The notes under the pieces were generated by a model. It had not been told where the DNA came from and searched no databases. It saw only the letters and a list, made by a program, of their open reading frames with translations. Made by a program: the position numbers and the translations under genes. Below, in pieces: positions 2,971 through 18,848 of a stretch of 28,316 nucleotides of DNA. The DNA lies in the IMG/VR virus record IMGVR_UViG_3300045115_000079, positions 1-28,316 of that record; one strand, written 5' to 3'. The stretch is from a virus. Within the stretch, counting starts at the first letter, position 1. Each line of letters begins with the position of its first letter.

Positions 2971-3894
2971 CTAACGGCCTCCCCCAGCCAGGTAGGCCGA
3001 CAGGGTGTGGATGGCGTGCCGGTCGAGGTTGTGCCGGTTGCGATCGTAGCGGGCGGTCAGGCGCGGGTCGGCGTGGCGGGCGAAGGTCTGCACGTCGCGG
3101 AGGGGCACGCCGGCGTCGAGAGCGTTCGTGATGGACGCGTGCCGCAGCTCGTGCGGGAGGACGCGCCTGGCGATCCCGGCGTGGCGGGCGACCCGCTCGA
3201 CGAGCTTGCGCAAGGAGCCGGCGTTGATCGGCTGGTCGTCGTGCCAGGTGCGCAACAGCAGAGGCCCACTGGTCCGTTCTCCGGCGGCCATGTCCAGCGT
3301 GCGGAGCACGGAGACCGGGAGCGGGATGGTGGCGGCCTTGTTGCCCTTCCCGACAACTCGCAGCACGCGGTGGCCGCGGACCTCATCGGCGAAGTCCTCG
3401 ATCTGCACGGCGCACGCCTCGTGGTTGCGCAGCGCGAGCATGCCGAGCAGCTGCATCGCGGCGCCCTCGGTCGGCGACATCCGCTGCGCGGTGAACAGCA
3501 TCGCCATGAGCTCGGAGCGGTCGAGTCCGAGCCGGCGGGTGGCGTCCCTGTCGAACTTCGGGCGACGCACGTGCGCGGCGGGGCTCTTGGTGATGTAGTC
3601 GTCGATCTCCGCGAACCGGTACAGGCCGATGACGACGCCGAGGTAGTGGTCGACCGTCGAAGCCATGAGCCCGCGGTCCTCGAGCGAGCGCGCCCAAGCC
3701 TCCAGGTGGGCGCGGTGAGCGTCGAGCGGTTCGACGCCACGCTCACGCAGCCACGTGTACAGCAGGCCGATGGTGGTGGCGTAGTTGCTGGCGGTGGGCC
3801 CGGAGTAGCGGGCGAGGTAGGCCAGGGCGGCGAGGTCTGACGGTGCGAGCGTGCCGCGGTCGTCGTGGGCTGGGAAGTGGGTAGCGTGACGCAT
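2971..3894 (-). CDS. int: Tyrosine-family phage integrase (307 aa)
   Basis: A site-specific recombinase that joins phage and host attachment sites. Residues ~15-105 form a SAM-like core-binding domain (SNYATTIGLLYTWLRERG and following helices). Residues ~115-305 form the catalytic domain with R156 (LALRNHE), a lysine in GKGNK (183-186), H248 and R251 (HELRH), H274 (ARHAD) and the nucleophile Y283 (TARYDR). All core residues are present, so it should be active. The length is on the short side for phage integrases and no arm-binding domain is obvious at the N-terminus. The ATG at 3894 is preceded by GGGGGA, a usable ribosome binding site; longer upstream frames read as non-protein. It points towards the tRNA-Asn gene and is divergent from the toxin-antitoxin-like pair, with 159 bp between. 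Confidence 0.95.
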   Translation of the reverse strand: MRHATHFPAHDDRGTLAPSDLAALAYLARYSGPTASNYATTIGLLYTWLRERGVEPLDAHRAHLEAWARSLEDRGLMASTVDHYLGVVIGLYRFAEIDDYITKSPAAHVRRPKFDRDATRRLGLDRSELMAMLFTAQRMSPTEGAAMQLLGMLALRNHEACAVQIEDFADEVRGHRVLRVVGKGNKAATIPLPVSVLRTLDMAAGERTSGPLLLRTWHDDQPINAGSLRKLVERVARHAGIARRVLPHELRHASITNALDAGVPLRDVQTFARHADPRLTARYDRNRHNLDRHAIHTLSAYLAGGGR

Positions 3895-4025
3895 AGCGTC
3901 CCCCGATCGTGTGTGCGATGTGGTGGGCGTCAGGGGCCGTCTGGAGCTGCAACTCTGGGCGGCCTCGCCCGTTGGAACGACGACTGTACGGCCGCGCGGC
4001 GCTGAAGGCAACGAATCCCAGCGGT

Positions 4026-4047
4026 GTGACCCGCTCACGGATACCCT
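4026..4047 (+). promoter_or_regulatory. Candidate leaderless promoter with small inverted repeat
   Basis: TACCCT at 4042-4047 fits the actinobacterial -10 pattern TANNNT and ends 6 nt before the ATG at 4054, so transcription could start at the start codon. This agrees with the lack of a Shine-Dalgarno there. GTGA-N5-TCAC at 4026-4038 lies just upstream and could be an operator half-site pair. No good -35 is visible. The same TACCCTCG string precedes the other antisense gene at 17863. Confidence 0.45.
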
Positions 4048-4053
4048 CGTGCG

Positions 4054-4293
4054 ATGGGCAGTGGCAGGTACTGGTCGAAGCACCCCAAGAAGGAGCTTGA
4101 GGCACTTCTTGGTGAGTTTCACGACGCGGGCTGGCGCATCGAGGATCCGCCCGTCTACTATCACGTCCTGTGCCCATGTGGAAACCACCAACGGTGGATC
4201 CACCTCACGCCGAGCGGAAGCCGGTACGTGCGTAACGCGCTAGCCTGGTTGTACCGCCAGCCGTGCTACGAGGGTTCGAAGGAGGAAAAATGA
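4054..4293 (+). CDS. HicA-like small protein, candidate toxin (79 aa)
   Basis: The layout resembles the HicA mRNA-interferase fold (a small double-stranded-RNA-binding-like domain). A first helix KKELEALLGEFHDAGW (12-27) is followed by a strand, a strand with a central His (PVYYHVLCPCG, H37), a strand with QRWIHLTP, and a closing helix YVRNALAWLYRQ. H37 sits where HicA has its catalytic His. C40, C42 and C71 are extra and not typical of HicA. Family assignment rests on fold pattern, not clear identity. The gene is on the plus strand against the late operon and overlaps the next gene by ATGA. A toxin role is inferred from size, fold and pairing. Confidence 0.72.
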   Translation: MGSGRYWSKHPKKELEALLGEFHDAGWRIEDPPVYYHVLCPCGNHQRWIHLTPSGSRYVRNALAWLYRQPCYEGSKEEK

Positions 4294-8029: not shown

Positions 8030-8284
8030 TCAGCCCTTCGGCTTCTGGGCGTTGCTGATGCGCTCCACTCCGATCGCGGTGACAACGCAGGTCACCGCAG
8101 CAATACGCCACTCTGCTGCCGTCGGCAGGTCGCCGCGCAGCAGCGTGGGCGCGAGGAGCGTGAGACCCGGCAGCACGAACGCGAGCACGGCCTTGCGGCG
8201 GCGCGCGAGCCACGCGACCAGCCCGCGGATCGCGGCGATGAGCCGGTCGAGCGCGTAGGCGCCCGGCCGGCGGTGCTCGCTCAC
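8030..8284 (-). CDS. Putative holin (84 aa)
   Basis: The protein has a basic, arginine-rich N-terminus and two hydrophobic segments, ~31-49 (KAVLAFVLPGLTLLAPTLL) and ~59-73 (WRIAAVTCVVTAIGV), with a short charged tail. This is the size and topology of a two-span phage holin, which forms membrane holes to release the endolysin. The start is GTG at 8284, overlapping the endolysin stop by 4 nt (GTGA). The call rests on topology and neighbourhood, as holins share little sequence. Confidence 0.72.
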   Translation of the reverse strand: MSEHRRPGAYALDRLIAAIRGLVAWLARRRKAVLAFVLPGLTLLAPTLLRGDLPTAAEWRIAAVTCVVTAIGVERISNAQKPKG

Positions 8285-9195
8285 TTCCCGCCCCGCTCGG
8301 ACAGCGCCTCGCCGAGCTCGGTGACGACCTGGCCAGCGAGGTCGTTCGGGAGCTGGTCGAGGATCTCGCGCGCGATGGCCTTGGCGTCGACCTCGACGTC
8401 GACCTGCGGAGCCTGCTTGAGCAGCGCGCGGACGCCGTTGCGGATCTCGCGGAGCATCGCGCCGCCGGGGCCGTCGCGGCGGACGCCCTCGCGGCCGACG
8501 GCCAGGTCCTTCGTGATGTCGACCAGGGAGGCGACGTCGGTGAGGAGCTTCTTCTGCTGCTTGTCGGTGAGTGCCATCAGGAATCCGTTCTCGAGGGGGG
8601 TGATGGTGAGGTTGACGTTCTTGACGGCCGCGCGGAACGCCGACATGTCGATGACGCGGCCACCGACGCCGGGGTCCCACTTCCCGGCCGTCGAGGACTC
8701 GGCGTGCGCGACGACGGCGCCGCGCGACCAGCCGTAGTGGTCAGCGACGGCCGCGACGCCGCGGTGGTAGGCGTCGAGCTGCTCGCGCGACCAGCCCTCG
8801 CTGCCGGAGTTGATGGCCTCCCAGCCGATCGACTGCGTGTTGCCGTCCCCGGCCCGGATGAACCCGGCGTCGCGCGCGGGGCCGGCGTGGTTCGCGCGAC
8901 CGGCGGCGACGACGTAGATGACCGGCGGCCCGTCGACGGTCTGGCGGCCGAGCGCGAGCTGGCAGAGCGGGCCGGGCAGCTCCGGGGGGAAGCCGCCGAC
9001 GAGGACGCGCTTGACGTAAGCGAGCTCCTGAGCGCGGTTGCTGGTGCCGTGCGCGCCGGTGTGGTGGACGACCTGCCCTCGAGGCGCGAACGGTCGCGCG
9101 GGTCGGTTGCGGGTCTTCCAGCCGGGCACCTCGACGACGGGCAGGCCGGAGGATCGGCACGCCTTCGCGAGGTCGGTGAGGAGCAGGTCGCTCAT
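8281..9195 (-). CDS. Endolysin, N-acetylmuramoyl-L-alanine amidase (304 aa)
   Basis: Residues ~35-180 form an Amidase_2/PGRP domain: VVHHTGA (zinc ligand H44), WEAINSG (E126) and VVAHAESSTAGKWDPG (H164, K172, D174), matching the zinc site of T7-type amidases. It cuts the bond between MurNAc and the L-Ala of the peptide stem, opening the cell wall at lysis. Residues ~205-304 are helical and charged (LTDKQQKKLLTDVASLVDIT, then VDAKAIAREILDQLP) and resemble the C-terminal region of other actinophage lysins, perhaps for wall binding or multimerisation. There is no signal peptide, so export depends on the holin. The ATG at 9195 follows a clean GGAGG-like site in the upstream gap. Confidence 0.9.
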   Translation of the reverse strand: MSDLLLTDLAKACRSSGLPVVEVPGWKTRNRPARPFAPRGQVVHHTGAHGTSNRAQELAYVKRVLVGGFPPELPGPLCQLALGRQTVDGPPVIYVVAAGRANHAGPARDAGFIRAGDGNTQSIGWEAINSGSEGWSREQLDAYHRGVAAVADHYGWSRGAVVAHAESSTAGKWDPGVGGRVIDMSAFRAAVKNVNLTITPLENGFLMALTDKQQKKLLTDVASLVDITKDLAVGREGVRRDGPGGAMLREIRNGVRALLKQAPQVDVEVDAKAIAREILDQLPNDLAGQVVTELGEALSERGGK

Positions 9196-13097: not shown

Positions 13098-13879
13098 AGC
13101 CACGTCCCGTAGGTGGTGGCGGTCGCGCGGCCGGTGCCGGCTGTGGCGGTGAGCCGCACGGTGGTGCCTCCTTGTGGGATGGGGAACCAGTTCCCGGCGA
13201 GCACGCCCCGCAGCTGCGCGTCGGGGTCGTCGAACATGCGGATCTGGCGGTTGGCGGTGTCGACGACGGCCCACGCGTTCGCGGGCAGGTCGGCGTCCAG
13301 GCGCAGGAACCGGCCGGTGGCGTCGGTGAGCGTCGGGGAGGACAGGGGGCCGTCGAGTCGGTACGTCGGCCAGGCGTCGGTGTTGCCGATGTTGTCGATG
13401 ACGACGGTCCGGTCGCGGCCGATGGCGTACACGTCGGGCTCGACGGTGTAGCGCAGCGGGTCCAGCGCGAGCAGTGAGAGGTCGGCGTCGAACGTGTACG
13501 GGCTGGTGCGGTTGATCTGCACGTCGCCGTTGAGTCGCACGGTCGCGCGCCGCTCGACCTCCTCGTGGAAGATCAGCGTCGTGTCCTCGGCGGACGCCGC
13601 GGCGATGAGCCGCTGCTCGGCCGCCCACCGCTCCTCGGGCGTCTCGGCGTCGACCGCGAGGGCGAGGTTGTACTCCTTGGCCTTGCGGGTCCACTTCGGC
13701 GCCCACGCGCCGTTGCGGCGGGGCCGGTCGACGACCTCACCGCTCGTCGAGGCGGCCCCCCATCCGGAGACCGAGGTGAGCGTCCACTCCACCGAGTGCT
13801 CGTCGACGCGATCCAGTGCGAGGTCGCCGAGGGTGACCGGCCACGCGCCGAGGATCGTGCCGGCTGGGTAGTCGCTCAT
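13094..13879 (-). CDS. Distal-tail (Dit)-like protein (261 aa)
   Basis: The protein starts MSDYPAGTILGAWPVTLGD. It has an N-terminal beta-rich domain (DEHSVEWTLTSVSGW, then KEYNLALAVDA), a typical SYTFDADLSLLALDPLRY-like strand (here PYTFDADLSLLALDP at ~133-147) and a C-terminal galectin-like half with NTDAWPTYRLDG. That pairing is usual in Dit/minor tail proteins, which join the tail tube to the tip. It lies directly between the tape measure and the tail-tip protein, the standard Dit position. The ATG at 13879 overlaps the tape measure stop by one base (TGATG). Confidence 0.8.
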   Translation of the reverse strand: MSDYPAGTILGAWPVTLGDLALDRVDEHSVEWTLTSVSGWGAASTSGEVVDRPRRNGAWAPKWTRKAKEYNLALAVDAETPEERWAAEQRLIAAASAEDTTLIFHEEVERRATVRLNGDVQINRTSPYTFDADLSLLALDPLRYTVEPDVYAIGRDRTVVIDNIGNTDAWPTYRLDGPLSSPTLTDATGRFLRLDADLPANAWAVVDTANRQIRMFDDPDAQLRGVLAGNWFPIPQGGTTVRLTATAGTGRATATTYGTWL

Positions 13880-16800
13880 CAGGCCCCCGGTCGCGAGAGG
13901 ATGTCGACCACCTTGGTGGCGGTCTTGGTGGTGATGGAGTCGACCGTGTCGGCCGGCATGCCGCTGTAGGTGACGCTCACGGACGGGCCACTGGTGCCCG
14001 CCTGGCGGTACTTGTCGAAGTTCCGGAGCGCGGCGGTCACGTTCGACCCGGTCGACCAGGACCCGGCCGGTCCGGTGGCGCCCGCGTCGGTGTACTCCAT
14101 GCCCGCGTACACGGCGGCGTCGGTCGCAGCCTTCTTGAGCTGGTTCTGCAGGTCGTTGATGACACCGATGCCGCCGGAGGCGAGCAGGCTCTTGCCGGTG
14201 AAGATGGCGTCGGTCGACGGGCCAGCGTTGATGAACTCGCTGAGGATCGGCCCTCGCAGGCCGGCGGCGATGAGCGCCTTGACCACCGCGCCCCACTGGG
14301 TCGTCGTGGCGACGGCCTTGCGCAGGTTCGCGGTGATGCCGCCCGCGGTCTTGAAGGACGCCGAGCTGATGGACCCCAGCCCGATGCCGATGTTCTTGAC
14401 GTTCGTGGCCCGCTCGATCGCGGCGTCCTGCGCAGCCCGGTACGCCTCGGCGGCGGTCGTGGCCTTCTCCTGCGCGGCCGTCTGCGCCGCCAGGGCAGCC
14501 GTGCGGGCCTTCTCCGCGGCCGTGAGCTCCTTGGCCTGCTTGGAGGTCTCCAGGCGCTTCTTCTCGGCCTGCAGGCGGCGCACCAGCGCCAGCTCGCTCT
14601 TGAGCTCGTTGCGGTTGCGGAGCGCCTGGTCCAGGGCTCGCTTCGCGTCGCGCTTCTGGGTCGACGTCTTGGCGTTCGACAGCCGATAGCGGGCGTTCGC
14701 CACCCGGGTCTCGGCCGAGGACAGCGACGTCTTGAGCGCCTTCTCCGAGCGCCGGCCCTTGAGGGCGCGGCTGATGTCGCCGATGCGCTGCTGGCCCGTG
14801 TACGCCCGGGCGCGCGCCAGCTCCAGGCGCCGGTTCGCAGCGGCCACGTTGTTGCCGGCGCTGCTGAGCTTGGACTGCGCGGCCACGTACTGCTGGCGCA
14901 GCTGCTCGGCCGAGGCCGGGTCGGTGTTCATCTGCTGGGTCAGGAACCCGCTGGTGATCGCGGCGCCCTTGCTGAGGGTCAGGGCGGTGCTGGGTGCGAG
15001 CAGGGACTCGCGGCCCTTGCTGCTGAGCTTCGTGGCCATCTTGTTCGCGGCCGACAGCTTGCGGGCGGTGATGACGCGACGCTCGAGCGAGCGGGTACGG
15101 CGGCGCTGCTGGGTGAGCTGGCGGCGCAGGGCCGAGCGGCGTGCACGGTCCTGGCTGCGCGCGATGCGGCGCGCGAGCAGCTTCTCGCGGCGACGCGAGG
15201 CCCGCAGGCGCGAGGACAGCGACGGCGGACGCTTGGGCTTGCGCTTCCCGCCGATCCCGCCGAACGGGTTGACCTTGCTCAGCAGCGCCCGGCCACCGCG
15301 CAGGACGCCACCCTTGAGCATGCGGGTGACGTTGCCGATCGAGAACCACGAGTCCTTCGGCGCGCCGCTCAGGCCGACCTTGCCGACCAGGCCCTTGAGC
15401 CGGTCCAGCGGCGAGGGGCCCGCCTTGCCCATCTTCGCCCCGCGCAACCAGGCGAGCGTCGCCGCACGGTTCGACGGGGTGCCCGGAGCGTTGCGGGCGA
15501 TCTCGAAGTGCAGGTGGTCGCCCGTGCTGTTGCCGGTGGAGCCGACCAGGCCGAGCCTCGTGCCAGCACCGACCATCGCACCGGCGCGCGTGAGGACCTT
15601 GCTGGCGTGCCCGTAAATCTGCAGCAGCCCGTCCGCGCCGCGCACGAAGATCGCCTGGCCGAACCCGCGACCCCAGCCGGTGTACTCGACCCGGCCGCGC
15701 GAAGCCGCCATGATCGGCGTGCCGCCGGCAGCGGCGATGTCGATGCCGGAGTGGCCCGGGTAGTTGGCCGACAGGGTGCGGGTGTTCGCGGGCCACTGGC
15801 GCGACAGCTTCGTCGCCGCGCCGCCGGTGTGCCGGTGGGGGTGCGCACGGCGCGCGGTGCCACGTCCGCCCTGCCCGCCTCGGGAGGCCATGCCCCGGTC
15901 CGAGAGCTCGGCGGTGGTGTTCGTGTTCATCCGGCCGACGGGCGGGATGCGCTTCCCGCCGATCTTGGAGGTGACCGAGTTGACGGCGTTGATCAGCCGG
16001 TTCACGACGTTGTCGATGACCCAGTTCACGGGCTTGGCCATGATCGCCTTGAGGCCGTCCCAGCGGGACTTGATGCCTCGCACGACGTTGCCGATCGCGG
16101 ACGGAACCTTCGACAGCGCCCGTCCCAGCCACGGCAGAGTCCCGACGACGCCACGACCGAGGCCGACGAGCAGGTCCTTGCCCGACTGCACGAGCCACTT
16201 CCCCGAGCCGGCGTACATCCGGAAGATGCCGGTCACGAAGCCGCGCGCCCGGGCGAGGTTGCTGGTGACGCCCTTCGCGATCCAGTCGCCCGCACGGAAC
16301 AAGCCGTAGCGGAAGAGGTCGCCCAGCCGCATAGCGAACTCGGCGCCCCACCGCTTGAGCGCGGGGAACGCCCCACGGAGTGCCCCGAGAAGCCTGCTCG
16401 CGATGCTCGGCCCGAACCATCCCATGCCGTTGCGGAACCCGAGGTAGAGGTTGCGGACGAGCTCGCCTGCGAAGCCGAGCGCAGAGCGGCCGGCCGTTCG
16501 GAAGCCCTTCGCGAGCCACACGACCAGCGGGCCGACGAGCGGGATCTTGCCCACGACTCGCCCGATGGGAGCGAGGAGCTTCGAGGGGGCGAGGACAAGC
16601 GTCAGCGCGGAGATCAGCGCGATCTCCCAGTTGTCGGCCAGCACCTTGAAGAGGTCGAGCGGGTTGTACGACAGGATGCCGAGCGCCAGGCCGGTGACGA
16701 GCGGGACGGCGGCCCGTCCGAACTCGATGCCGAGCCCGGCCCAGTCGACCTTCTTGGCCACCTGGCCGAAGCGCGCGGTGAGGTCCTTCGCGAGGCCCCC

Positions 16801-17817
16801 CAGCTTGCCGAGGCCCACGCCGATGCCGGCGGCGAGCTTGGTGCCGAACGCCTCGCCGTCGAACTTGTCGGTGTCGAGGGTGAAGCCGCCGAGGCGCTTG
16901 CCGACCTTCTTGAGATTGCGCACGGCGTCGCGGGTGAAGTTCCCGAGGGCCGTGCCGACGACCATGGCCTTGTCCTCGAGCGGGCCGAGCTTGTCAGTGA
17001 TGCCCTGGATCCCGCCGCGGACCTGCGGGAAGAACCCAGACAGCAGGTTCGCGCCCACGCGGCCGAGGGCGGCCTTCATGTTGGCGAACGCGCCCGACAT
17101 CGTCTTGCCCGACTCCTGGGACGCGCCACCGAGCCCGGAGCGCATCGCCGAGGAGAACGCCTTGAAGTCGATCTGTCCCTTCTGGGACAGCTTGTAGACG
17201 TCCTCGGCGGAGATCCGCAGCTGCTTGCTGAGCAGCTGAACGATGGGGATGCCCTTGTCGTTGAGCTGGTTGATGACGTCGCCCTGCACCTTGTTCGAGG
17301 CGGCGACCTTATTGAAAACCCCTCCCATTTCCGAGAGCGGGACCTTCGCGATCGTGGCGGCGTCGGCGACGAGCTTGAGGTGTCGAGTCAGCTCGCGACC
17401 CGGCTTGATGCCGGCGGCGACGGACGAGGCGGCGATCTTGCCGGCGTCGGCCATGCCGAACGCGGTGCCCTTCACCGAGGCGAGGGCGTTGGCCATGATC
17501 TTGTCGACGGCCTTCGCGTCGTGGCCCAGGCCGGTGAGCGAGGCGCGGGCGTCCTCGATGCCCATGAGCCGGGAGATGCCGCCCTTGATCGCGAACCCGG
17601 CGGTGATCGCCGTGGCCACGCCGCCGACCTTGATGGTCTTCTTGAGCGTGGAGGTGATCCCGCTGCCGACCTTGCGCATCCCAGAGCGGGTGCTCTTGTC
17701 GAAGTTCTGGGTGAACGCTCCCCCGGACTTCGTGGCCTCGCGCCCGACGGACGTCTGGAAGCCGCGCATGTCCGGGACGACCGGCACCATCACTCGTCCC
17801 GCGGTGAATCCGGACAT
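13879..17817 (-). CDS. Tape measure protein with M23 peptidase domain (1312 aa)
   Basis: This is the longest gene, as expected of the protein that sets tail length. The first ~270 residues match the conserved tape-measure head (VSRLMGIEDA-like region, and NQLNDKGIPIVQLLSKQL). Hydrophobic stretches follow around 360-480. An M23 (LytM) zinc endopeptidase domain at ~680-775 has H689 and D693 (GHSGIDIA), H737 (YGHAS), and H768/H770 (GDHLHFE), all ligands present. It could nick peptidoglycan while the genome is injected. Residues ~825-1180 are very rich in Arg, Lys, Ala and Leu and should form long coiled coils. The ATG at 17817 is chosen by the usual N-terminus; the ribosome binding site is weak. 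Confidence 0.93.
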   Translation of the reverse strand: MSGFTAGRVMVPVVPDMRGFQTSVGREATKSGGAFTQNFDKSTRSGMRKVGSGITSTLKKTIKVGGVATAITAGFAIKGGISRLMGIEDARASLTGLGHDAKAVDKIMANALASVKGTAFGMADAGKIAASSVAAGIKPGRELTRHLKLVADAATIAKVPLSEMGGVFNKVAASNKVQGDVINQLNDKGIPIVQLLSKQLRISAEDVYKLSQKGQIDFKAFSSAMRSGLGGASQESGKTMSGAFANMKAALGRVGANLLSGFFPQVRGGIQGITDKLGPLEDKAMVVGTALGNFTRDAVRNLKKVGKRLGGFTLDTDKFDGEAFGTKLAAGIGVGLGKLGGLAKDLTARFGQVAKKVDWAGLGIEFGRAAVPLVTGLALGILSYNPLDLFKVLADNWEIALISALTLVLAPSKLLAPIGRVVGKIPLVGPLVVWLAKGFRTAGRSALGFAGELVRNLYLGFRNGMGWFGPSIASRLLGALRGAFPALKRWGAEFAMRLGDLFRYGLFRAGDWIAKGVTSNLARARGFVTGIFRMYAGSGKWLVQSGKDLLVGLGRGVVGTLPWLGRALSKVPSAIGNVVRGIKSRWDGLKAIMAKPVNWVIDNVVNRLINAVNSVTSKIGGKRIPPVGRMNTNTTAELSDRGMASRGGQGGRGTARRAHPHRHTGGAATKLSRQWPANTRTLSANYPGHSGIDIAAAGGTPIMAASRGRVEYTGWGRGFGQAIFVRGADGLLQIYGHASKVLTRAGAMVGAGTRLGLVGSTGNSTGDHLHFEIARNAPGTPSNRAATLAWLRGAKMGKAGPSPLDRLKGLVGKVGLSGAPKDSWFSIGNVTRMLKGGVLRGGRALLSKVNPFGGIGGKRKPKRPPSLSSRLRASRRREKLLARRIARSQDRARRSALRRQLTQQRRRTRSLERRVITARKLSAANKMATKLSSKGRESLLAPSTALTLSKGAAITSGFLTQQMNTDPASAEQLRQQYVAAQSKLSSAGNNVAAANRRLELARARAYTGQQRIGDISRALKGRRSEKALKTSLSSAETRVANARYRLSNAKTSTQKRDAKRALDQALRNRNELKSELALVRRLQAEKKRLETSKQAKELTAAEKARTAALAAQTAAQEKATTAAEAYRAAQDAAIERATNVKNIGIGLGSISSASFKTAGGITANLRKAVATTTQWGAVVKALIAAGLRGPILSEFINAGPSTDAIFTGKSLLASGGIGVINDLQNQLKKAATDAAVYAGMEYTDAGATGPAGSWSTGSNVTAALRNFDKYRQAGTSGPSVSVTYSGMPADTVDSITTKTATKVVDILSRPGA

Positions 17818-17850
17818 GGAGAATCACCGCCGTTCGGGCGTCGGAGGGCT

Positions 17851-17856
17851 TACCCT
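17851..17856 (+). promoter_or_regulatory. Candidate leaderless promoter for the antisense membrane protein
   Basis: TACCCT ends 6 nt before the ATG at 17863, and there is no Shine-Dalgarno. The 8-nt string TACCCTCG and its distance from the ATG are identical to those before the plus-strand gene at 4054. No clear -35 is present. The assignment is an inference from position and repetition. Confidence 0.45.
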
Positions 17857-17862
17857 CGGGGA

Positions 17863-18135
17863 ATGTTCGACTTCTTCGGGGACTGGCTGAACTGGGTCAA
17901 CGCCAACGACGACGGGTCGCCTCTGATCTGGCTTGGCTTGGTGGTGGCGTCGCTGCTCGCTGCATTCGTGGTCATCACCGTGGTGTTCGCGGTGATCGTC
18001 GTGGGCCTGACTGCGCCGTTCACCGCATGGGAGAAGCGGAAGCGTCCTGAGCGTCACGCCGCATCGCGCGCAGCCTTCGAGCGCCACATGGCCGAGCAGG
18101 CGGAGAAGAAGGCCGCGCGCCGCTCACTGGGCTAG
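17863..18135 (+). CDS. Small membrane protein, antisense within the tail operon (90 aa)
   Basis: The N-terminal 19 residues are aromatic and acidic (MFDFFGDWLNWVNANDDGS). Residues ~20-53 are very hydrophobic (WLGLVVASLLAAFVVITVVF and more), enough for one long or two short membrane spans. The C-terminal 35 residues are basic and helical (WEKRKRPERHAASRAAFERH). It runs against the surrounding operon between the tape measure and tail-assembly genes, and its 3' end overlaps the convergent gene by 12 bp. A leaderless-type promoter precedes it. Small membrane proteins with their own promoter in prophage late regions are often superinfection-exclusion factors; that role is an inference. Confidence 0.75.
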   Translation: MFDFFGDWLNWVNANDDGSPLIWLGLVVASLLAAFVVITVVFAVIVVGLTAPFTAWEKRKRPERHAASRAAFERHMAEQAEKKAARRSLG

Positions 18136-18534
18136 CTGGTTCGCGAACAGGATGCTGCTGGCGCGGGTGAGCGCCTCGTCGCTGCGGTGACGCCAGTACC
18201 GATCCGCAGCCGTGTCTGGCGGCGGGATGGGGTTGGGCTTGTACTTCTCCGCCGCGACCGCGAGGGACTGCTCGAGCGTGCTGTGGATGCGCATGAGCAG
18301 GACGTTGGTCTCGTCGAAGTGGCGGACGCTGGGTCGCCACTGGACGCTCCGCGCGGGGGCGTCCGGGTCGAACGCGTCGGGGTCGTCGGCTTGGGCCTGG
18401 CCGATGTGGCTGGCGCGCGGGAGGCCGTCGACGACGTTGAGGATGTAACGGAAGCGGCGCTCCCGCCAGAGCTGACCGAGGTCCATGCCCCGGTCGGCGA
18501 GGTCACGCTCGATGGCCTCGCCGTACCGGCGCAT
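18124..18534 (-). CDS. Tail assembly protein, second of the pair (136 aa)
   Basis: A charged, mostly helical protein starting MRRYGEAIERDLADRGMDLG, with WRERRFRYILNVVDGLP near residue 25 and a Pro-rich linker near 105. This gene stands between the first chaperone and the tape measure, the usual place of the GT-type tail assembly protein. Its reading frame is -1 relative to the first gene and is open across the junction, yet it has its own ATG at 18534 with GAGGG upstream. It may thus be made separately, by frameshift, or both. Confidence 0.72.
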   Translation of the reverse strand: MRRYGEAIERDLADRGMDLGQLWRERRFRYILNVVDGLPRASHIGQAQADDPDAFDPDAPARSVQWRPSVRHFDETNVLLMRIHSTLEQSLAVAAEKYKPNPIPPPDTAADRYWRHRSDEALTRASSILFANQLAQ

Positions 18535-18542
18535 GAGTGCCC

Positions 18543-18848
18543 TCAGTCGGCGGTAGGCCCCAGGCCGTAGTGCTGCTGCACCTTGGCGGTGAACGCCTGC
18601 ATGGCGCCGGTCTTGATGACCTTCGCGCCGAGGATCTTCTCGTGGTCCTTGGGGAACAGGAGCTTGATCATCTCGATCGTGCCGGCCTCCTCGAAGGCGC
18701 GGAAGTCGAGGTCGAGCGGGTCGACGGCCTGGTAGGGCTGGCCGCCGATGGTGGCGACGAACGGCTTGACCTCGGCCTCGCGCTCCCAGGCGTCGAAGTT
18801 GAAGTCGACGGCCAGGTCGGTGGGCGTGCTGTTGCGGGTGGTGGTCAT
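18543..18848 (-). CDS. Tail assembly chaperone (101 aa)
   Basis: The acidic protein includes FNFDAWEREAEVKPFVATIGG and the segment VDPLDLDFRAFEEAGTIEMI, matching the small tail assembly chaperones that bind the tape measure before tail tube growth. It lies two genes upstream of the tape measure, downstream of the major tail gene, as expected. AAGGAG precedes the ATG at 18848. The stop TGA is 8 nt before the next gene's ATG. Confidence 0.78.
   Translation of the reverse strand: MTTTRNSTPTDLAVDFNFDAWEREAEVKPFVATIGGQPYQAVDPLDLDFRAFEEAGTIEMIKLLFPKDHEKILGAKVIKTGAMQAFTAKVQQHYGLGPTAD

Follow-up and report, generated by a model that had tools for sequence, protein, structure and literature searches.

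Why does a small reading frame run backwards through the tail operon of a temperate phage, immediately ahead of the gene for its tape measure protein (tmp)? The window, by which we mean the whole stretch of DNA that was analysed, is a 28,316-base IMG/VR record of a temperate siphovirus, and the host of this phage is an actinobacterium. Its minus strand carries the terminase, head, tail and endolysin genes, and the presence of an integrase gene identifies the phage as temperate. The original prediction described a 90-aa ORF with a hydrophobic stretch and a basic tail, antisense to the tail genes and placed between the tail assembly chaperone (TAC) gene and tmp, and both the coordinates and the translation confirmed this arrangement.

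2971..4203, minus strand: integrase (phrog_1, 2.8e-31)
8281-9195, minus strand: endolysin
13879..17817, minus strand: tape measure protein (tmp), 1312 aa (PHROGs, 2e-48 and others)
17843..17856, plus strand: inverted repeat GAGGG-CTTA-CCCTC with 5-bp arms, over the -10 box (from sequence)
17851..17856, plus strand: predicted -10 box TACCCT, 6 nt ahead of the ATG (from sequence; the arrangement recurs in other genes of this slot)
17863..18135, plus strand: gene for a 90-aa single-span membrane protein, an orphan (reverse moron; from the ORF, codon signature, HMM and shuffles)
18124..18135, no strand assigned: tail-to-tail overlap of 12 bp with the TAC 3′ end (from the two stop-codon coordinates)
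18124..18534, minus strand: T-type TAC (phrog_2624, 4.8e-8; relatives of annotated TACs)
18543..18848, minus strand: G-type TAC, assigned by position (synteny; weak phrog_22068)

The frames of the G-type (18543-18848) and T-type (18124-18534) TAC genes have the -1 offset expected for programmed frameshifting. The tape measure protein contains an internal metallo-endopeptidase/endolysin-like domain at about residues 688-802 (PHROGs to 6.5e-20).

The reverse gene and its predicted promoter

The ATG of the ORF lies 45 bp from the tmp start (17817, minus strand), and the product of 17863-18135 is MFDFFGDWLNWVNANDDGSPLIWLGLVVASLLAAFVVITVVFAVIVVGLTAPFTAWEKRKRPERHAASRAAFERHMAEQAEKKAARRSLG. Codon-position GC was 0.65/0.45/0.87 in the frame of the ORF and 0.93/0.49/0.63 in the same frame directly upstream of the ATG, where the DNA is antisense to tmp. 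This codon signature switches exactly at the ATG, which argues that the ORF is a gene and did not arise by chance. A 7-state codon HMM trained on tmp independently called 17863-18132. The null model consisted of 4000 dinucleotide shuffles of the 318-bp gap; an ORF of at least 90 aa arose in 359 of them (9%), so the length of the ORF is by itself uninformative, but none of the 4000 attained its coding score and none its hydrophobicity. In this GC-rich DNA the frame stays open far into the tmp antisense strand, and extension of the ORF to its maximum of 875 aa, starting at 15508, was dismissed because the codon signature of the added upstream portion is wrong. The reverse ORF at 17863-18135 is well supported as a gene with its own promoter.

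The hexamer TACCCT matches TANNNT, with its T at 17851, 12 bp before the ATG at 17863. In Actinobacteria, TANNNT about 12 bp upstream is a signature of leaderless transcription (PMC3160421; PMC3898074), and a leaderless mRNA starting at about 17863 is predicted for the 90-aa gene. TACCCT-N6-ATG would thus provide the promoter of its own by which a moron is recognised. No convincing -35 box was seen in this promoter, and standard sigma-70 and terminator scans, which are poorly suited to actinobacterial promoters, returned nothing near the gene. Nor did an intrinsic-terminator scan find terminator-like sites within or after the insert, which overlaps the convergent gene by 12 bp. An own terminator is usual for morons and not obligatory. 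The 5-bp inverted repeat over the -10 box is a possible operator that could equally be due to chance; this 14-bp palindrome had no above-chance repeats within the window.

Occupants of the slot upstream of tmp

The original prediction held that this position is normally uninterrupted, and in agreement, no gene was inserted between the TAC or pre-tmp gene and tmp in any of 10 annotated actinophage relatives. No relative close enough to the window phage to provide a direct empty site was found. The slot was also scanned across 250 actinobacterial phage loci, which formed 188 clusters; the non-redundant set comprised the 183 with at least 1.5 kb of upstream sequence, and gene gaps were called by the codon HMM, because frameshifted TAC ORFs lack start codons. 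An unrelated reverse gene lay directly 5′ of tmp in 11 of the 183 clusters (6%), the window included. Eight of these 11 occupants have TANNNT-N6-ATG and eight encode membrane or lipoproteins. Those other than the 90-aa gene are:

L141 (Leucobacter prophage): reverse, leaderless gene of Ltp type (PF07553, 2e-46; PHROG superinfection exclusion, 3.7e-62)
L166: TM2
L150 and L188: DUF2510 with a membrane segment
L205: membrane-anchored protein
L061 and L103: putative lipoproteins
L118 and L060/L048: DUF4429
L117: 55-aa soluble protein

An uncertain twelfth case is L033, in which the reverse ORF is HTH-like and 61 aa long. TAC and the insert are separated by one small additional gene in the Leucobacter loci.

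Occupied and empty slots also occur within one group of phages: L150 and L188 are occupied, and in L143, L167, L182 and L183 the TAC stop is followed by tmp after a short gap. The insert is thus missing from relatives at a compact junction, as a moron should be, both in the 10 relatives and through the polymorphism of the L150/L188 group. Together, the empty slot in relatives, the different reverse genes elsewhere and the comparison of occupied with empty members lend good support to the original view of the gene as inserted cargo. The gene itself is not conserved, being an orphan with no homologue in the collections searched. The absence of a conserved ORF at this position from all relatives, which had been proposed as evidence against the prediction, is literally what we found, but it does not refute a moron, since the slot holds different cargo in different phages. 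Antisense overlap of the gene with TAC, also part of the prediction, is real; it looks like a by-product of tight packing and does not speak for a regulatory RNA. Convergent overlaps of slot occupants range from 4 to 12 bp by ORF coordinates (12 in L118, 8 in L103 and 4 in L141).

The spacing of the -10 box was counted by locus cluster for reverse ORFs of at least 50 aa without overlap with sense genes. TANNNT stood six bases before the ATG in 11 clusters, and spacings of 5, 7, 8, 9 and 10 were each found in 0-2; the Ltp case L141 was dropped by the overlap cut-off, and its inclusion brings the spacing-6 clusters to 12. The background frequency is 0.05-0.2%: TANNNT-N6 was found before a single one of 1915 sense starts and before 0.17% of reverse-strand ATG/GTG codons overall. 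The boxes are TATGAT (L166), TAAGCT (L118), TATGCT (L141), TAAGAT (L150 and L188), TACGAT (L117 and L130), TAAGTT (L060/L048) and TAATGT (L125). Over the roughly 4 kb upstream of tmp there were 12 such leaderless reverse genes, 8 of which occupy the slot directly 5′ of tmp; L125 and L130 have theirs between the major tail protein and TAC, and those of L057 and L175 lie farther upstream. The L057 gene (L057:1578-2198, minus strand), upstream of the major tail protein, encodes an HNH endonuclease (PF13392, 5e-9).

Kin of two other slot families were found in reverse-strand lysogeny-type blocks, beside an integrase gene in ACFishhook and beside an HTH gene in TaylorSipht, a setting consistent with lysogen expression.

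Several further observations concern the same region. In L048, a sense-strand HNH-like endonuclease gene (L048:3021-3812, read by eye) shares the slot with the reverse DUF4429 gene, and the near-identical phage L060 retains what appears to be a C-terminal remnant of it (L060:3590-3840); homing may help cargo to enter the slot. Just ahead of tmp, the tail strand of L166 (3809-3850), L141 (3815-3870), L060 and L048 carries hairpins with T-runs that resemble intrinsic terminators, similar to the putative terminator following HK97 gp15. Between the major tail protein and TAC, small reverse HMM calls (e.g. L025, L095 and L120) contained no sensible ORF and were discarded as noise. Three related prophages (L083, L085 and L090:2842-2967, minus strand) have in that interval a reverse ORF whose codon scores are good and whose 41-aa product is very hydrophobic.

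Topology and possible roles of the 90-aa protein

The protein has a hydrophobic stretch of about 33 residues (20-52) followed by a K/R-rich tail (57-90). Its 19-residue hydropathy maximum is 3.14, and values of at least 3.1 occurred in just 11 of 11151 ORFs of at least 60 aa. A one-sequence AlphaFold model has helices at residues 3-14, 20-60 and 62-87, with a mean pLDDT of 75.8 and a pLDDT of 95 over residues 31-40. Hydropathy and the predicted helix thus indicate a membrane anchor, as would be expected of a superinfection-exclusion protein, which should be membrane-anchored or surface-exposed. By positive-inside reasoning, the basic tail would be in the cytoplasm. Most likely, a long helix of the protein spans the cytoplasmic membrane, its short acidic N-terminus faces outwards and its basic helical tail is inside.

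No homologues were found in phages, IMG/VR, GTDB contigs or 395 genomes of one actinobacterial class; two marginal matches (E about 5e-5) covered the hydrophobic segment alone. Weak family matches (phrog_6558, 0.009; DUF7426, 0.0059; EccE, 0.0056) were below cut-offs, are typical of hydrophobic segments and were rejected. PADLOC returned no match, PF07553 (Ltp repeats) did not match the protein, and BLASTP against HK97 gp15 gave no alignment. Without a homologue, no function could be transferred.

The original prediction named superinfection exclusion as the likely job of the gene. Exclusion is still the best functional guess, on the indirect grounds of the Ltp-type gene in L141, the slot shared with HK97 gp15 and the topology, and the lack of a homologue counts against it. 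With an Ltp protein encoded in reverse in this very slot of another prophage, we favour exclusion at the stage of DNA entry. We consider it somewhat better than an even chance that the 90-aa gene is a lysogen-expressed moron that probably excludes superinfecting phages at DNA entry, a role judged from its location, topology and analogues. A cargo gene would have been inserted backwards between TAC and tmp of a temperate actinobacterial siphophage, and its own sigma-A-type promoter would start transcription at the A of the ATG. The resulting mRNA would be leaderless, and its production in the lysogen would not require an active tail operon; its membrane product would most likely keep the DNA of superinfecting long-tailed phages from entering, plausibly through an action on the incoming tape measure protein, as do HK97 gp15 and TP-J34 Ltp. 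Transcription of the late operon converges on the gene and would cross it in the antisense direction, which could silence it during lytic growth. The results directly support the gene with its codon signature, the -10 box with its spacing, and the insertion slot with its recurrent use, whereas expression in the lysogen, topology, exclusion and the tape measure target are inferred. Exclusion genes do not have the slot to themselves, since nothing about its DUF4429 and 55-aa soluble occupants clearly marks them as membrane or exclusion proteins.

That diversity bears on a second reading, in which the gene is again a lysogen-expressed moron and its membrane product serves another purpose, such as altering the envelope or fitness of the lysogen. 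Several slot families (DUF2510, DUF4429 and TM2) are of unknown function, and the relatives in the lysogeny-type blocks of ACFishhook and TaylorSipht would suit such a role. In contrast, the only occupant to which a function has been assigned is an exclusion protein, and the position beside tmp matches that of HK97 gp15; we regard a non-exclusion role as a possible but clearly less favoured account. The cytoplasmic basic tail might instead bind the tape measure protein of competitors late, stopping tail assembly. There is precedent in Pseudomonas aeruginosa Tab of phage JBD26, an 83-aa constitutively expressed moron that targets the tape measure protein (PMC10884400), but Tab sits between terminase genes and requires anti-Tab, and the 90-aa protein is dominated by a membrane helix better suited to blocking entry. 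Such a late block therefore seems improbable.

Two other readings are weaker still. If the ORF were spurious, the DNA would be only a spacer or the source of an antisense RNA against the tail operon. The ease with which ORFs of this length arise in shuffles and the lack of a homologue would be expected in that case, but the coding score and hydrophobicity matched by no shuffle, the frame switch at the ATG and a promoter positioned for leaderless translation make this very unlikely. A holin or holin regulator could be similarly small, with a single hydrophobic helix and a basic C-terminus. However, the endolysin gene (8281-9195, minus strand) is about 8.6 kb away, so the 90-aa gene is neither in nor beside a lysis cassette, and it has its own promoter on the strand opposite all late genes, from which expression of a holin in the lysogen would be lethal. 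We give this explanation the least credence.

Returning to exclusion, we propose, tentatively and expecting that it may well fail as a whole, that temperate siphophages of actinobacteria repeatedly exchange reverse, leaderless genes at the slot directly 5′ of tmp, and that these genes are expressed in the lysogen and are often directed against superinfection. Adjacency to tmp would link an entry blocker to the component it targets, and antisense late tail transcription would shut the cargo off in the lytic cycle. The rule of a reverse ORF directly 5′ of tmp with TANNNT six bases before its ATG finds prophage cargo genes that automatic annotation may easily overlook or label as antisense noise. 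If the occupants are exclusion genes, the rule would yield a list of new actinobacterial anti-phage proteins and test whether entry-blocking proteins travel with the tape measure gene.

Comparison with known systems

One close parallel is HK97 gp15, a moron in the same slot between TAC and tmp. Both are small proteins in which a single hydrophobic segment near the N-terminus is combined with a charged cytoplasmic tail that is probably helical. Unlike the 90-aa gene, gp15 is on the tail-gene strand, is followed by a putative terminator and belongs to a Gram-negative coliphage, and the two have no sequence similarity; exclusion is experimentally proven for gp15 and proposed by analogy for the 90-aa protein. 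HK97 (NC_002167) also has a gene annotated 'reverse moron product', gp23, between tail genes I and J (14715-14975). Both gp15 and TP-J34 Ltp block DNA injection, with targets that map to the tail tube or tape measure (PMC10883804). The Ltp family (PF07553) has a member in the identical reverse, leaderless slot arrangement in Leucobacter L141, although the 90-aa protein lacks Ltp repeats and a lipobox, and ltp of TP-J34 is located in the lysogeny module, not beside tmp.

Reverse genes in structural operons have been described in Cluster O mycobacteriophages, where Corndog 53 and YungJamal 60 are leftward genes in a rightward operon (PMC4351075). Corndog 53, predicted to be a DNA-binding protein, has a SigA promoter that gives a leaderless mRNA; YungJamal 60, of no known function, is an insertion missing from relatives. 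Placement directly 5′ of tmp is not reported for either in the passages that describe them. An independent annotation of a reverse gene in the position just ahead of tmp is gp57 of the Microbacterium prophage vB_MoxS-R1, which has been shown to be inducible (PMC9030533); CATCAT stands six bases ahead of its start. A text search of the paper on this prophage found no mention of gp57/ORF57, and the gp57 product differs from the 90-aa protein in being a DUF4429-type relative and not a membrane protein. In the open-access literature we found no account of this slot being used repeatedly for reverse, leaderless genes. Morons, exclusion genes adjacent to tmp (as in HK97, with gp15) and leaderless genes that run backwards in the structural operons of actinophages (as in Cluster O, PMC4351075) are already known kinds, and the orphan 90-aa protein is new within the kind of morons and reverse leaderless tail-operon genes.
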